A DNA stretch of 64,000 nucleotides from Candidatus Onthovicinus excrementipullorum (GTDB lineage Bacteria > Bacillota > Clostridia > Oscillospirales > Acutalibacteraceae): positions 1 through 64,000 of the forward strand of contig DVHG01000020.1 of assembly GCA_018712345.1 (NCBI GenBank), written 5' to 3'. The position numbers and the translations under genes were made by a program. Shown here piece after piece: positions 1,565 through 13,975 of this stretch (its first letter is position 1; the number at the start of each line of letters is the position of its first letter). Below the pieces are notes generated by a model. That model was not told the DNA's origin. It searched no databases and saw only the letters and a list, made by a program, of their open reading frames with translations.

Positions 1565-1591
1565 AATAGAGGATAATATCTAATTATCCAT
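1565..1591. repeat. 27-bp perfect inverted repeat, left copy (dif-like: GGATAAT-ATCTA-ATTATCC core)
   Basis: AATAGAGGATAATATCTAATTATCCAT; exact reverse complement at 4958-4984. Confidence 0.95.
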
Positions 1592-1619
1592 TTAATTTTA
1601 GGTTGAAATAGGAGACAAA

Positions 1620-3950
1620 ATGGCTGAACAATTATTAGATAGAGAAAAAGAAACAAAAGAAATATTAGAAATCCTAAATAACTCTGCGGACAATAACAAA
1701 ATTATTTATCTAACAGGAATCAGTGGTGTAGGAAAGACCGGATTTGTCAAAAAACTTTCACAAAGCTCACTACTTAATCAAACAATTTTATCTATTAAAA
1801 TTAGCAAAAGTTCCGTCGAAACAATTGAAAACTTACAGTATTTTAATGCATTGTACAAGGCGGTTACAAATTATGCTAAAAATAAAATGTTTGATTCAGT
1901 TTTATCTCCTGCACAACAAAATGCAAGGAGTATTAGGAATCTTTGGAGAGTTTTGGTCAGCATGTTCAAAAGTAAATCTGGGTTATCGGATATGGAACCT
2001 TTATCAGAGCCCGCAGAAGATGCAGGAGTTGTAAGGAAAAAAGATTATTTGCTTTATGTACTGAAAAAGAATGATATTATAATTGATATTGAAAATATAC
2101 AAAATATAGATACGCAGTCTTGGGAACTGATAAAGGATATAATATATGAAGCTCATAATCGGACATTTATCTTTGAGTATACTCTTACAAATAGTAGTCA
2201 TAATCATTTTGAAAATCAATATAAAGAATTTAGAGAAATATGTTCCGATATATCCTGCTACAAAATAGAAAAAATGGATTTTTTAATCGCTCAAGATTTG
2301 GCTCCAGCAGATATAAATATTAACTTCGATGAAGTACGTGTGCAATATGAAAAGAGTAATGGCAATTTGATGGAAATAATCTTGGCAAATGAATATAGTA
2401 ATGAGAGCGAAAGCAACATTGATACAAAGATAAAAAAATTATCTAAAAAAGAAAAATATATATTATTTATTGTATATTTAAATGATGCACCTATAGAATA
2501 TGATGATTTGGCTGTCATGGCCATCGAAAATGACAATCAAATTCGCTTAGATTTTGAAGAATTAAAAAGCTTGATAAACATATTATGCCAGAAAAAAATA
2601 TTAATAAAAGAGAACGATACTGTAAAAATTAAGCATGACTCTATAATTGAAGCATTACAAATATATATGCAATCTCCGATTTTATACTGTGCATATATAA
2701 CTTTAAAGAATTTCTACAATGATAATCTCGATACTAAAAAGGCATCAGTAGAAAAGCTTTTATCATTATATCTGCGTTTCTCTGACCAAGATCTTTTAAT
2801 TCTACTACCTAGAATAAAAGAATTTATTTTGGATATAAAATATCCCGATCTAATTATAGAAAAATTAGATCTTTTCAGAAATCAAATATTACACTCCAGC
2901 GCAAAGGGATTTTATGGTGCAGATTCTTTGACACAAATGATAGTAGAAATTTGTCTTAATAAACAAATGGGAAATATTGCACAAAAAAATCTAGATTTGA
3001 TATATGACGACACCAATGCCTATCATATTGCATTACAGGCTCAAATTTATTCTCTTCAGGAAACGATGGCAGCACATGATGCATTATGTACTCTAGTGCA
3101 AAAATTACAAGACGGTAGTCGGCTTAAATTAATATGCGAAATTTGTTTTTTATATTTAAAAATGAAATTATTGCCTGCTCAGAATGCTAAAGAATACGGC
3201 AAAAAACTTATTAGTAACAAGCTATATACACAATACATAGAGTATGCTTATCTTTTGCGAAATTATGCTGAATTATCTGATGACAATGAAGAATGTAAAC
3301 AATTATATAACCAAGCTCTTGATAGGTTTAAAAGTAAAGAAATGTACCATGATATGGCTGCGGTATATCTTTCGCTCTCAATGATAACAGCTTATAGCGG
3401 AGATATTGCTCGGTCAAAGCAATATATAAAAGATGCTACTACACTAGATAGGCGGGAACTTTCAGAATGCTATATTTTGAATAATAATGCTGTGTTGGAA
3501 TTACTTGGCAACGCTTACTCTAATCAAACAGAAAAAGATTTGAGAAACGCGTTATTATTGTGTGTAACTAGATATGAAAAATTAATAGTAAGTGCTAATC
3601 TATTAATTTTCTATTGCCTTACCAATAATTTTAATGAAGCTACTCGTATAGCAGATTTCATTGAAAAGAGCAATTATCTTGATTTTCAATATGAAGAATT
3701 TTTGCATATCATATATCAAAATTTATACTATTATTATGATTTATTCAAACATAATAATAATAAAAGACACTACTATTATGACCAGATCCTAGATTTAGTT
3801 AATTCCCCGAAGACGAAAGAATCAACTAAATTTTTGGCTTCTGGTATGAATCATCTTATAAAAACAGACTACTTTTATGCTCAATTCCCGTTTAGAGCAG
3901 ATTTCTTGGGTTATTGGGAATTCACAGTTGATAGTGATTTAAGCAATTGA
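1620..3950 (+). CDS. STAND-type P-loop NTPase with winged-helix-like and TPR-like C-terminal region
   Basis: Walker A TGISGVGKT, Walker B-like NDIIIDIEN, helical-repeat C-terminus; RBS aggag at about 1610; AT-rich. Confidence 0.75.
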   Translation: MAEQLLDREKETKEILEILNNSADNNKIIYLTGISGVGKTGFVKKLSQSSLLNQTILSIKISKSSVETIENLQYFNALYKAVTNYAKNKMFDSVLSPAQQNARSIRNLWRVLVSMFKSKSGLSDMEPLSEPAEDAGVVRKKDYLLYVLKKNDIIIDIENIQNIDTQSWELIKDIIYEAHNRTFIFEYTLTNSSHNHFENQYKEFREICSDISCYKIEKMDFLIAQDLAPADININFDEVRVQYEKSNGNLMEIILANEYSNESESNIDTKIKKLSKKEKYILFIVYLNDAPIEYDDLAVMAIENDNQIRLDFEELKSLINILCQKKILIKENDTVKIKHDSIIEALQIYMQSPILYCAYITLKNFYNDNLDTKKASVEKLLSLYLRFSDQDLLILLPRIKEFILDIKYPDLIIEKLDLFRNQILHSSAKGFYGADSLTQMIVEICLNKQMGNIAQKNLDLIYDDTNAYHIALQAQIYSLQETMAAHDALCTLVQKLQDGSRLKLICEICFLYLKMKLLPAQNAKEYGKKLISNKLYTQYIEYAYLLRNYAELSDDNEECKQLYNQALDRFKSKEMYHDMAAVYLSLSMITAYSGDIARSKQYIKDATTLDRRELSECYILNNNAVLELLGNAYSNQTEKDLRNALLLCVTRYEKLIVSANLLIFYCLTNNFNEATRIADFIEKSNYLDFQYEEFLHIIYQNLYYYYDLFKHNNNKRHYYYDQILDLVNSPKTKESTKFLASGMNHLIKTDYFYAQFPFRADFLGYWEFTVDSDLSN

Positions 3951-4914
3951 CTATTAAATATTCAAACATCTGGGAGAGAGAATAGCCTTTGCTTCCAAAT
4001 GCATAATAAAAGGCACAATCATCTCCCAGATAACAATCTGGAGATAATTCGATCAAATGAAATTCACCCTGATACATACGGCCATCGACACGCATAAATT
4101 CAATTTTATCGAATGCTTTAAATAAATTGTGTATTTTATTAATATCGTTTTTAGATATGAATGAACTCATTTTAAAATCTATATTTGTATCATCTATTTT
4201 TTTGGTTTCATATCCCCAAATTTCATGATCAAAGAACTCTTTTTTATCCATTATCAACTGAACTTCTTCGCTGAAAGTAATTCCTTTTTTGGTTCCTACA
4301 AGAATTAATTCAACCTCCTCACCTGGAATATATTCTTCAACTAGAATTGGCATTTTATGATAGGAATATAATCTTATAACAAGATCAGTGGCAGAATCAA
4401 AATCAGCACATATATTATGCTCAGAGATGCCTGTTGAGCCGCCCCCAAAATTAGGTTTGATGACAAAAGGAGGTTTTAATGAATGCAGGTTCTCTTTAAC
4501 AGTAGCAAAATTTTCTGGATTTCTAAAAAGAAGAGCAGGCGCTGTTTTTATGCCGAACTCCCTAGCAAATATTTTGGACATATATTTATCATTACATAAC
4601 ATATGAGCATAATCATCTGCTCCTACATATTTTAATCCTGCTCCTTCGCAAATACCCGGGATTATGCTTTTAGAATCCGGTGCATTATACCCATATTTCA
4701 TAGGAAATATAATATTTTCTTTATATTTTTCTATATCATGCATGAACAAAGGAACACTTGTATAAATTTCAAATTCTTTACATATAGATTTAATTGCATT
4801 TGATATCATTCTCGTTGAATGTTCATTATTGCCCTCTAAATTTCTATTTGATATATCTGCATGATCTATTTTTTCATTTTCGTCTGTTATTAAAACCACT
4901 TTGTTATCAATCAT
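3922..4914 (-). CDS. ATP-grasp ligase (D-Ala-D-Ala-ligase-like)
   Basis: PPFVIKPNFGGGSTGIS, ILVEEYIPGEEVE, FMRVDGRM..FHLIELSP; start chosen at MIDNKVV with RBS GGGAGGGG (longer ORF to 4947 possible). Confidence 0.75.
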   Translation of the reverse strand: MIDNKVVLITDENEKIDHADISNRNLEGNNEHSTRMISNAIKSICKEFEIYTSVPLFMHDIEKYKENIIFPMKYGYNAPDSKSIIPGICEGAGLKYVGADDYAHMLCNDKYMSKIFAREFGIKTAPALLFRNPENFATVKENLHSLKPPFVIKPNFGGGSTGISEHNICADFDSATDLVIRLYSYHKMPILVEEYIPGEEVELILVGTKKGITFSEEVQLIMDKKEFFDHEIWGYETKKIDDTNIDFKMSSFISKNDINKIHNLFKAFDKIEFMRVDGRMYQGEFHLIELSPDCYLGDDCAFYYAFGSKGYSLSQMFEYLIVNCLNHYQL

Positions 4915-4957
4915 GTACTTCCCCTCCCAGCAATAAACCAAAGACATATTTTTTAAT

Positions 4958-4984
4958 ATGGATAATTAGATATTATCCTCTATT
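4958..4984. repeat. 27-bp perfect inverted repeat, right copy
   Basis: ATGGATAATTAGATATTATCCTCTATT = reverse complement of 1565-1591. Confidence 0.95.
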
Positions 4985-5060
4985 CCGCATTCCTCACAAC
5001 TTAAAATGATCTATACTTATCAAGAATTTACATACATCAAGAAGTGATTTATACACAATT

Positions 5061-5089
5061 ATTATACCCCTTATTTTTACAAAGTTCAA
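5061..5089 (-). promoter_or_regulatory. Sigma-A-like promoter pointing into the cassette through the right repeat
   Basis: Minus strand TTGAAC-N17-TATAAT. Confidence 0.6.
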
Positions 5090-5219
5090 TATAAAATATA
5101 AACATACTTCTCATTTCGTTTTTGTTCAACTCTGCCCTCAGGCTTTTGATTCGACAAAAGCGTAAAAAGCGGTCATAATAGTAACGGGGTTTCCAAAAAC
5201 AAAGACGATAGGAGAATGT

Positions 5220-6167
5220 GTGATGCTTATTTTGGACGAAGAAATCAGTCAATACTTATCCCAATGCCGGATCAAAAAAGAACTCAATCCATTGACTCTG
5301 AAAGCATATGGGATTGATCTCGGGCAATTTTCCGCATTTGCCGCGGGAAGGATTTGGACGGAGCGGGAGGCGATTGATCGGTACATAGACCTGCTGCATG
5401 CCCGATATAAGCCCAAGACCATCAAGCGCAAGACGGCGAGCCTAAAGGCGTTCTTTCACTATCTGGAAGAGGAGGAGAAGATCGCTCTCAATCCGTTTCA
5501 TAAGATTCGGCTGAATTTCCGCGAGGCGTTTATTTTACCCAAGACGATCTCCGTGCCCAATATTGCCCGTCTGCTGGACAGAAGCTACCTGGTGCAGGGG
5601 GAACTCACCCAGTACCAGTCCTTCTGCCGCCTGAGAAATGTCTGTGTACTTGAACTGCTTTTTGCTACGGGAATGCGTGTGAGCGAGGCCGCCCACCTGA
5701 CGCTGAAAGATTTGGACTGGAATGCCAGAACGATTCGCATTTTTGGCAAGGGCGCCAAGGAACGGATGATCCAGCTGACCAATCCGGACGTGATCGGGAT
5801 CGTGGGCCAATATCTGGACAGGCGCACGGCGATCGGGATGGAACAGCCCTATCTTTTTCTCAACCGGGATGGAGGCCGGTACTCCGAACAGTCAATCCGC
5901 AATATGATTCAAAAATACACCCGGGAGGCCGGCATTCGGGAGCACATTACCCCACATATGTTCCGTCACACCTTTGCGACGCTCCTGCTGGAGGAGGATG
6001 TGGACATCCGGTATATTCAGCACATGCTCGGACACAGCTCCATCACCACCACGCAAATCTACACCCATGTCAGTACACGAAAGCAGCGGATTATTCTGGA
6101 AAAGCATCATCCCAGGAATTTTATTCAGGTTTGCTCAAACGGGGGATCCATAGACGGCGCCGGGTAA
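5220..6167 (+). CDS. Xer-like tyrosine recombinase
   Basis: FATGMRVSEAAHL, HMFRHTFATLLLE, HMLGHSSITTTQIYTHV: the R..HxxR..H..Y catalytic pattern; about 315 aa. Confidence 0.92.
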   Translation: MMLILDEEISQYLSQCRIKKELNPLTLKAYGIDLGQFSAFAAGRIWTEREAIDRYIDLLHARYKPKTIKRKTASLKAFFHYLEEEEKIALNPFHKIRLNFREAFILPKTISVPNIARLLDRSYLVQGELTQYQSFCRLRNVCVLELLFATGMRVSEAAHLTLKDLDWNARTIRIFGKGAKERMIQLTNPDVIGIVGQYLDRRTAIGMEQPYLFLNRDGGRYSEQSIRNMIQKYTREAGIREHITPHMFRHTFATLLLEEDVDIRYIQHMLGHSSITTTQIYTHVSTRKQRIILEKHHPRNFIQVCSNGGSIDGAG

Positions 6168-12553: not shown

Positions 12554-13975
12554 CTATTTGCCGTATGCGTAGTAAATAATGTGAATGCAGCGGTTCTGCC
12601 GGTCAAAGACGATGTGATGGACAAAGGTGCGCAGCAGCAGATTCCGCAGATCCGGCGGCGGGGATGCGGGACTTTTCCGGTCCGGCGGAGCGTCCCCGTC
12701 TGCGGGTTTCTGCTCCTCGGATTGCAGGCGCCGTTTTTGTGCTTCAAGCGCGCGGAGCTGTCCGCCGATCCGTTCCTTGTTTGCCCGGTACTCCTCCAGA
12801 GAGTCGATCCCGCGCTCATAGGCATCCCGGATCCGGTCCAGCCGCTTTTGTTCAATGGCAATCTGCCGGTCCAGCAGCGCCGACTCGGGAGAGGGCCTTT
12901 CCCGTACCCTGCGGTTCAGCATGATCGCGGCCCCAGCCCAGTCATCCAGGATGGCCGGTAAGATCAGGGCCTCGATCTTTGGGGTGGAGATGTAATGCGA
13001 AGCCCCGCACCGGCCGTGGATATATCCGCTGCACTGGTATCCGCCCCGGGCGGAGGACAGGGTTCGGCCGCAGGCGCCGCACTGGAGCAGGCCCCGGACC
13101 AGCGGGCCGGAGAGGCCGCGGCGCTGGTATTTGCCATACATGGTCTTGAGCACATCGGCCCGTGCCTGTACGCGCTCCCACAGGGGGAGATCAATCAGGG
13201 GATCGTGACACCCGTCCGTGATTTGGACATCCGGCCCGTCAAAGCGGCGGCCGGCAGGGCCGTTTGGATTCCAGCGGATCTTTCCGATGTAGACCGGATT
13301 GCGCAGGATATATTCCACGGCGCGGTCTTCCCACGCGCCGCCGCGGCCGGTATGGACGCCCAGTCCGTTGAGCGTCAGGGCGATTGAGCGGTAGCCCGCG
13401 CCGCCGGCAAACTCCTCAAAAATCATCCGGACCAGCGGGGCCGTATCCGGGGCGGGGAGCAATGCGCCCTGATCCATGCGGTAGCCAAACGGTGCGACGG
13501 AGACAGGGCGCCCGCGCCCGGCGCGCTCGGCCATGCCGCGCCGGACCTCATCGGCCAGGCGGACGGAATAATACCCGTCCATCCACTCGATAATGCGTTC
13601 AATCAGACTGCCGAATTCGCTATCCGCAGCGATCGGCTCCGATACACTGATCACGGAGATCCCGCGCTCGCGGCGGAGGAGCGATTTGTAGACAATACTC
13701 TCCTCCTGATTGCGGGCAAAGCGCGAAAATTTCCAGACCAGCACTGCACGGATCTGATTTTCCCTGCACCGCGCGACGGCGATCATCCGCTGGAATGCGG
13801 GCCGGTTTTCCGCCCTGCGTCCGCTCACGCCGTCAGCCTCCCGGAAGATGAATGCCTCCGGCAGAACCATGCCGTGTGCTTCGGCATACTCCCGGATGCG
13901 CTTCAGCTGGCTGTCTGGGCTGTATTCCAGCTGATCGTCCGTGCTCACCCGGATATAGGCGGCGACGATATCCAT
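12554..13975 (-). CDS. Large serine recombinase (resolvase/recombinase/zinc-ribbon)
   Basis: AAYIRVSTDDQLEYSPDSQ, VLVWKFSRFARNQEES, GRPVSVAPFGYRM, GLLQCGACGRTLSS. Confidence 0.93.
   Translation of the reverse strand: MDIVAAYIRVSTDDQLEYSPDSQLKRIREYAEAHGMVLPEAFIFREADGVSGRRAENRPAFQRMIAVARCRENQIRAVLVWKFSRFARNQEESIVYKSLLRRERGISVISVSEPIAADSEFGSLIERIIEWMDGYYSVRLADEVRRGMAERAGRGRPVSVAPFGYRMDQGALLPAPDTAPLVRMIFEEFAGGAGYRSIALTLNGLGVHTGRGGAWEDRAVEYILRNPVYIGKIRWNPNGPAGRRFDGPDVQITDGCHDPLIDLPLWERVQARADVLKTMYGKYQRRGLSGPLVRGLLQCGACGRTLSSARGGYQCSGYIHGRCGASHYISTPKIEALILPAILDDWAGAAIMLNRRVRERPSPESALLDRQIAIEQKRLDRIRDAYERGIDSLEEYRANKERIGGQLRALEAQKRRLQSEEQKPADGDAPPDRKSPASPPPDLRNLLLRTFVHHIVFDRQNRCIHIIYYAYGK

Follow-up and report, generated by a model that had tools for sequence, protein, structure and literature searches.

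The locus described here raises the question of why two convergent, unrelated genes should be enclosed exactly by a perfect inverted repeat beside the gene of a tyrosine recombinase. It lies in a 64,000-nucleotide stretch of the Candidatus Onthovicinus excrementipullorum genome (contig DVHG01000020.1, positions 1 to 64,000), hereafter the window. We consider it highly probable that the locus is a site-specific inversion switch, in which the adjacent Xer-like recombinase puts either gene behind a promoter outside the cassette. In the proposed mechanism, the recombinase would bind two oppositely oriented 17-bp cores (GATAA/TTATC with an asymmetric 7-bp spacer) and flip the 3.37-kb segment between the sites. 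Neither convergent gene would have a promoter of its own; a fixed promoter outside the recombinase-side site would read the adjacent gene, now an ATP-grasp ligase and after inversion a STAND-like NTPase, and a terminator would shield the opposite side. From such exclusive expression, it would follow that a population mixes "sensor/defence" cells with "enzyme" cells. An inversion switch had been put forward in a preliminary description of the window, and it gained support from an inversion in Aliarcobacter plasmids, a site common to the recombinase family, inward-pointing genes at the sites, and a locus-specific spacer. We infer inversion in the window's species, catalysis by the window recombinase, exclusive transcription, and a benefit, which would plausibly be bet-hedging, with some cells bearing the cost of an immune sensor and others making an enzyme that alters a surface or a metabolite.

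The inverted repeat is exact over 27 bp: AATAGAGGATAATATCTAATTATCCAT occupies positions 1565-1591 (left site, plus strand), and its reverse complement occupies 4958-4984 (right site, minus strand). Both arms match the site of the recombinase family, and the core GATAATATCTAATTATC lies at 1572-1588 in the left arm. This perfect repeat had been reported at the same positions, with the first A omitted from its spelling. No further copy with up to three mismatches was found besides these two in the whole 2.45-Mb genome. Chance would produce 1e-7 to 7e-6 perfect 27-bp pairs in 64 kb, so the repeat far exceeds what chance explains. The segment between the arms spans 3.37 kb with a G+C content of 30%, compared with 55% for the window, and contains no transposase. 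It encloses the two convergent genes that had been claimed, at 1620-3950 (plus strand) and 3922-4947 (minus strand).

The first of these genes encodes a STAND-like NTPase of 776 aa, with the Walker A motif GISGVGKT near the N terminus and a long repeat-like C terminus. Its matches to AAA_16 (26.4 bits, E 1e-5, Pfam cut-off 32.6) and nSTAND6 (18.5 bits, cut-off 27.7) were weak and below the cut-offs; its same-slot homologues match AAA_16, NB-ARC, nSTAND, and TPR models, and the homologue in genome G147 is 46% identical. PADLOC assigned the window protein to no known anti-phage system, the sole match being mad8 (E 0.0016). The second gene encodes a D-Ala-D-Ala-ligase-like ATP-grasp ligase. Its open reading frame can be extended to 4947 (341 aa), and the start at 4914 (3922-4914) was favoured because of the homologues and the Shine-Dalgarno sequence GGGAGGGG. 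With this start, the claimed distances of 28 and 43 bp between the gene starts and the repeat were reproduced. PF07478, the C-terminal domain of D-Ala-D-Ala ligases, was the closest curated family (44 bits, above the cut-off of 24), and the top PDB matches were Ddl and Van ligase structures. An orthodox Ddl identity was rejected due to a TIGR01205 score of 79 bits, far below the cut-off of 245.65.

The gene at 5220-6167 (plus strand) encodes the Xer-like tyrosine recombinase that had been noted as starting at 5220, a XerD/XerC-like protein of 315 aa. It scored 149 bits against PF00589 (Phage_integrase) and retains the complete catalytic set (R153, K177, H246, R249, H272, and Y281), which is invariant in 14 homologues; an HPRN motif at the C terminus is common to homologues at 42-54% identity. 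The reading of the repeat as a dif-like Xer core was not upheld, as the site is not dif and the enzyme is not a housekeeping XerC or XerD. The NCBIfam scores were below the cut-offs (XerD 240.7 bits against 329.6, XerC 235.8 against 335.15), and two sites flank the neighbouring cassette. Additionally, an IntI-type integron integrase was rejected (integrase_gron model 110 bits, cut-off 265).

Homologues of the window recombinase were detected in 14 of 300 genomes of the host taxonomic family (E <= 1e-50) and in 16 of 388 genomes of the host class (E <= 1e-60). One same-genus genome (G001) carries a homologue, and its contig stops 318 bp upstream of it. In GTDB genomes, at least 585 stretches were found to encode a relative, from which the best 80 loci were kept for locus analysis. 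The family occurs mostly in Clostridia, and the same design recurs, with many gene pairs, in hundreds of bacteria. The phage and viral collections searched held few close relatives, so the element is not specific to phages.

The inverted repeats of the family have a core of 17 bp in common, GATAAY-N5-RTTATC, with inner arms GATAA/TTATC and a 7-bp spacer, and both window sites conform to it. Of the 80 GTDB homologue loci, 50 have a strict site no more than 450 bp from the recombinase, whereas 1 of 200 control windows had one. Both sites of one locus carry an identical spacer, which differs from locus to locus, as would be expected if a tyrosine recombinase exchanged strands there. Other arrangements of the site were also observed. 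At L127:141-329 and L142:2139-2295, recombinases of the same family adjoin inverted site pairs only about 140-170 bp apart, which are predicted to be promoter-size switches with the same site. At L121, two site copies in the same orientation (10964 and 12151) adjoin the recombinase, and recombination between them would excise rather than invert.

The preliminary description had proposed a search for the opposite orientation in a homologous locus, and such a case was found in plasmids of two Aliarcobacter cryaerophilus isolates (ATCC 43158 and M830MA). The plasmids carry the same recombinase, under one protein accession, and near-identical flanks, whereas the 3,458 bp between the sites align in reverse-complement orientation, with three differences. 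At both junctions, the sequences agree without a mismatch as far as the 17-bp site and across it, so that the breakpoints are the sites themselves. The inverted cassette encodes an ATP-grasp ligase 36% identical to the window protein and a STAND-like protein whose identity to the STAND protein of G147 is 22%; with this gene content, it is a cassette of the window's kind. Among the three differences, the loss of one base from a run of A in M830MA splits the annotation of the STAND gene (L283:1937-4407); it could be a mutation or a sequencing error.

Assemblies of two further isolates provided a second line of evidence. In Paenibacillus sp. YN15, the cassette forms a contig of 1,756 bp, and a 26-bp site is all that its two ends and the two contigs flanking it have in common. 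For Lacrimispora amygdalina, this common site measures 24 bp, compared with an overlap of 119 bp between neighbouring contigs, the pattern that a k-mer graph produces when both continuations occur. Both assemblies therefore break at the sites, as expected with coexisting orientations; this is support and not proof, because long repeat arms also break assemblies. Overall, 26 of 85 true contig ends lay within 130 bp of a site, whereas uniform placement would give about one or two.

The placement of genes relative to the sites was determined from 27 cassettes with both ends in hand (54 ends). An inward-pointing gene stood at 51 of the 54 ends, with the start at a median distance of 28 bp from the repeat, so an internal promoter usually has no room. 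This point, made earlier for the window, thus generalises. Two layouts were distinguished, in which the recombinase reads away from the cassette, as in the window, or toward it. Inward promoter-like sequences reached significance on one flank in less than half the loci, most often in the site-recombinase gap in the away layout and on the far flank in the toward layout. A fixed promoter at the recombinase side is not a general rule, as the promoter can sit on either flank. Terminator-like hairpins on the flank opposite the promoter were found in the window, L060, L063, and L092; a promoter side opposite a terminated side was seen in several loci, although not in all, which supports this arrangement without establishing it for each locus. 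Among distant homologues, the orientation relative to the recombinase differs (L074/L078 and L058/L124), which carries no weight as proof, since the promoter may also lie on different sides.

In the window, the 235-bp intergenic region between the right site and the recombinase (4985-5219) holds the putative inward promoter and a presumed recombinase promoter. The promoter pattern claimed earlier, TTGAAC-N17-TATAAT, is present at 5061-5089 on the minus strand and reads into the cassette through the right site. It tied for the top consensus score in the region; however, the match alone is weak evidence, because 32 promoter-like sites were found where 23 were expected. The weight-matrix score of the promoter flank was equalled in 0 of 60 shuffles of that flank. 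Directly outside the left site, an intrinsic-terminator-like hairpin with a 12-bp stem was found at 1498-1526 (previously placed at 1499-1530), which is predicted to insulate the promoterless side of the cassette. In the present orientation, the ATP-grasp gene is predicted to be ON and the STAND gene, distal to the promoter, OFF.

The cargo of the homologous cassettes consists of gene pairs that recur as pairs, and in most of them an intracellular sensor or effector of anti-phage type is set opposite an enzyme for small molecules or glycans. The combination of STAND and Ddl-like ATP-grasp genes occurs in the window, L053, L074, L078, L116, Aliarcobacter, Paenibacillus IHBB 10380, and probably L100; an independent STAND/ATP-grasp cassette, with a repeat of its own, was found in another genus. 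STAND is paired with SHMT in L145 and Streptococcus salivarius ICDC2, and a long STAND-type ATPase is paired with a glycosyltransferase in L089, L098, and L136. TIR-like proteins face a glycosyltransferase (L058 and L124), and TIR proteins face a P-loop kinase (L092 and L093). The remaining combinations are radical-SAM/ATP-grasp with a pentapeptide protein (L087, L097, and L107), methyltransferase with a GNAT-like protein (L059, A. faecis, and S. salivarius), spermidine synthase with an unknown protein (L090 and L179), and ThsA-like SIR2 with TIR, convergent inside the cassette (L067:7511-9639, L140:7216-9309, and, by sequence, L277:5552-7717). A strict "defence versus surface" rule was rejected as too narrow, as the ThsA/TIR, methyltransferase/GNAT, and spermidine-synthase cassettes do not fit it. 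The methyltransferase/GNAT-like cassette at L059:4559-6401 lies among mobile-element-like genes, which is consistent with the spread of flip cassettes on mobile elements. At L063:4156-9332, a one-sided cassette carries a SEFIR protein, a nuclease-like gene, and a lipoprotein, all on the same strand between the sites, and is possibly an on/off rather than an either/or switch.

Several observations weigh against an exclusive inversion switch. The recombinase of the inverted Aliarcobacter pair is only 43% identical to that of the window, the assembly of the window's species shows one orientation, and the window promoter is a consensus match. Among all paired loci examined, a clear one-sided promoter is not present in every homologue, and that of L074 is on the unexpected side. 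In some loci, the recombinase gene runs directly into the cassette with no visible terminator, which could allow low-level transcription of the "off" gene. Finally, three cassettes pair ThsA-like SIR2 with TIR, a poor fit with strict either/or expression. ThsA and TIR proteins act together in Thoeris, and for this reason these pairs are hard to square with strict exclusivity. Either some expression of the "off" gene persists at a low level, or the switch leaves a fraction of the cells with a disarmed system. The Thoeris-like halves in L067, L140, and L277 may not be co-expressed.

The inversion switch competes best with the possibility that the recombinase mainly captures and exchanges two-gene cassettes, as an integron-like single slot, inversion being a by-product of the inverted site order. 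We regard this alternative as possible and clearly the less probable. It draws on plasmids in which the same recombinase and flanks hold different cassettes. An A. faecis plasmid is 97.8% identical to the A. cryaerophilus locus on the recombinase side and about 91% identical on the far flank; between the sites, it carries the methyltransferase/GNAT cassette and not STAND/ATP-grasp. Likewise, five S. salivarius and S. equinus megaplasmids have the recombinase and a downstream pezAT flank in common and hold three different convergent pairs, in which a polyprenyl synthase faces an unknown protein, an SHMT-like enzyme faces a STAND-TPR protein, and a GNAT-like protein faces a methyltransferase. 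Homology between plasmids with different cassettes stops at the sites or a few bases from them. One methyltransferase/GNAT-like pair is common to Clostridia, Streptococcus, and Aliarcobacter, and the cassettes are AT-rich relative to their hosts (24-37% G+C). Cassettes and recombinases have different histories, since the window and G147 ligases are 71% identical and the recombinases 47%. Cassettes are exchanged as well as flipped, which corrects the earlier account of flipping only; comparison of these related plasmids shows whole gene-pair cassettes swapped at the same sites in the recombinase family, presumably by the action of the recombinase. However, the gene placement nearly always makes flipping change the outside-facing gene, the exact inversion was seen without exchange, and flanking homology could explain exchange through ordinary homologous recombination.

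Less probable still is a switch of ratio, in which neither protein is ever fully switched off. In either orientation, the dedicated promoter would drive strong production of one, read-through (for example, with the recombinase) would supply a little of the other, and the two would work jointly as a two-component system whose balance is flipped. The pairs do recur across distant genomes, including the ThsA and TIR halves, and in several loci the recombinase stop codon lies about 10 bp or less from the site. We consider this reading unlikely, as a terminator stands on the other side of the window cassette, and L060, L063, and L092 have one between the recombinase and the site. Inert remnants, with repeats such as the terminal repeats of a mobile element that delivered both genes and no programmed inversion in this species, would agree with the AT-rich cassette in a genome of 55% G+C and the single assembled orientation, but they are very improbable given an intact recombinase with all catalytic residues, a perfect repeat with no transposase inside, and the same architecture inverting in Aliarcobacter.

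Around the switch, the window opens with the end of an rRNA operon and three tRNAs, followed by a manganese-catalase-like gene. About 6 kb past the switch, a large serine recombinase gene (12554-13975, minus strand) may mark another mobile element.

The inversion switch was compared with known systems. In the G segment of phage Mu and the C segment of P1, inverted by Gin and Cin, convergent alternative gene sets flip behind a fixed outside promoter. The proposed switch would resemble them in that the genes flip, the promoter stays, and each inversion swaps the set that is read, but it is not a member of that family. Those systems use serine invertases, an enhancer, a fused N terminus, and tail-fibre cargo, whereas here there are a Xer-like tyrosine recombinase, separate complete genes, immune or enzyme cargo, and exchanged cassettes. 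Mycoplasma Xer1 vpma/vsp and pneumococcal PsrA hsdS inversions involve families of paralogous surface-protein or specificity genes. These are similar in that a Xer-type or related tyrosine recombinase selects the gene or domain after a fixed promoter or start; in contrast, the two genes here are unrelated. Promoter invertons, of the PhaseFinder type or the C. difficile RecV switches, likewise combine inverted repeats with a tyrosine recombinase in gut Clostridia, although there the promoter flips, whereas here the genes would flip and the promoter lies outside. A promoter inverton was rejected because the segment is 3.37 kb of coding DNA, with gene starts 28 and 43 bp from the arms and the promoter outside.

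Integrons and Xer pdif modules also have a Xer-related tyrosine recombinase, a resident locus, and exchangeable cassettes; unlike them, the present design has two inverted near-palindromic sites, one slot, and a convergent pair. An integron was rejected, as no attC array was seen, only two sites, and the IntI model scored far below the cut-off. Some sister cassettes resemble Thoeris (ThsA/ThsB) in carrying ThsA-like SIR2-STALD and TIR; whereas Thoeris is an operon, these genes are convergent inside an invertible cassette, and ThsA/TIR is not present in the window. A 2025 gut inverton survey linked inverton group 139 (32 of 33 in Clostridia) to tyrosine recombinase group 35, with an unpublished motif (PMC11892184). 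This group may overlap the window recombinase family. In the literature searched, which covered few subscription journals or preprints, we found no description of this family, the two-gene cassettes, the cassette exchange, or the cargo.

Phase variation is mostly associated with surface proteins and restriction specificity. The recombinase family seems to place an immune-type sensor and an unrelated enzyme as alternatives under one promoter. The hosts of these cassettes include gut Clostridia and plasmids of Streptococcus and Aliarcobacter, and pairs are seemingly swapped between strains. We give about even chances to the broader proposal that this is an undescribed, widespread class of single-slot "flip cassettes", in which a Xer-like recombinase locus both inverts and exchanges convergent pairs, typically of an immune-type sensor or effector (STAND, TIR, SIR2, or a long STAND-type ATPase) and a biosynthetic enzyme (ligase, glycosyltransferase, SHMT, or methyltransferase), splitting a clone between two mutually exclusive immune or metabolic states. 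The results also flag a systematic assembly problem, as contigs often stop at these sites, and isolates carrying such loci make the idea of a flip switch directly testable. If true, defence genes could be kept silent, heritably, in some cells of a clone and exchanged there for a metabolic trait, and this would change how immune systems should be counted in genomes.

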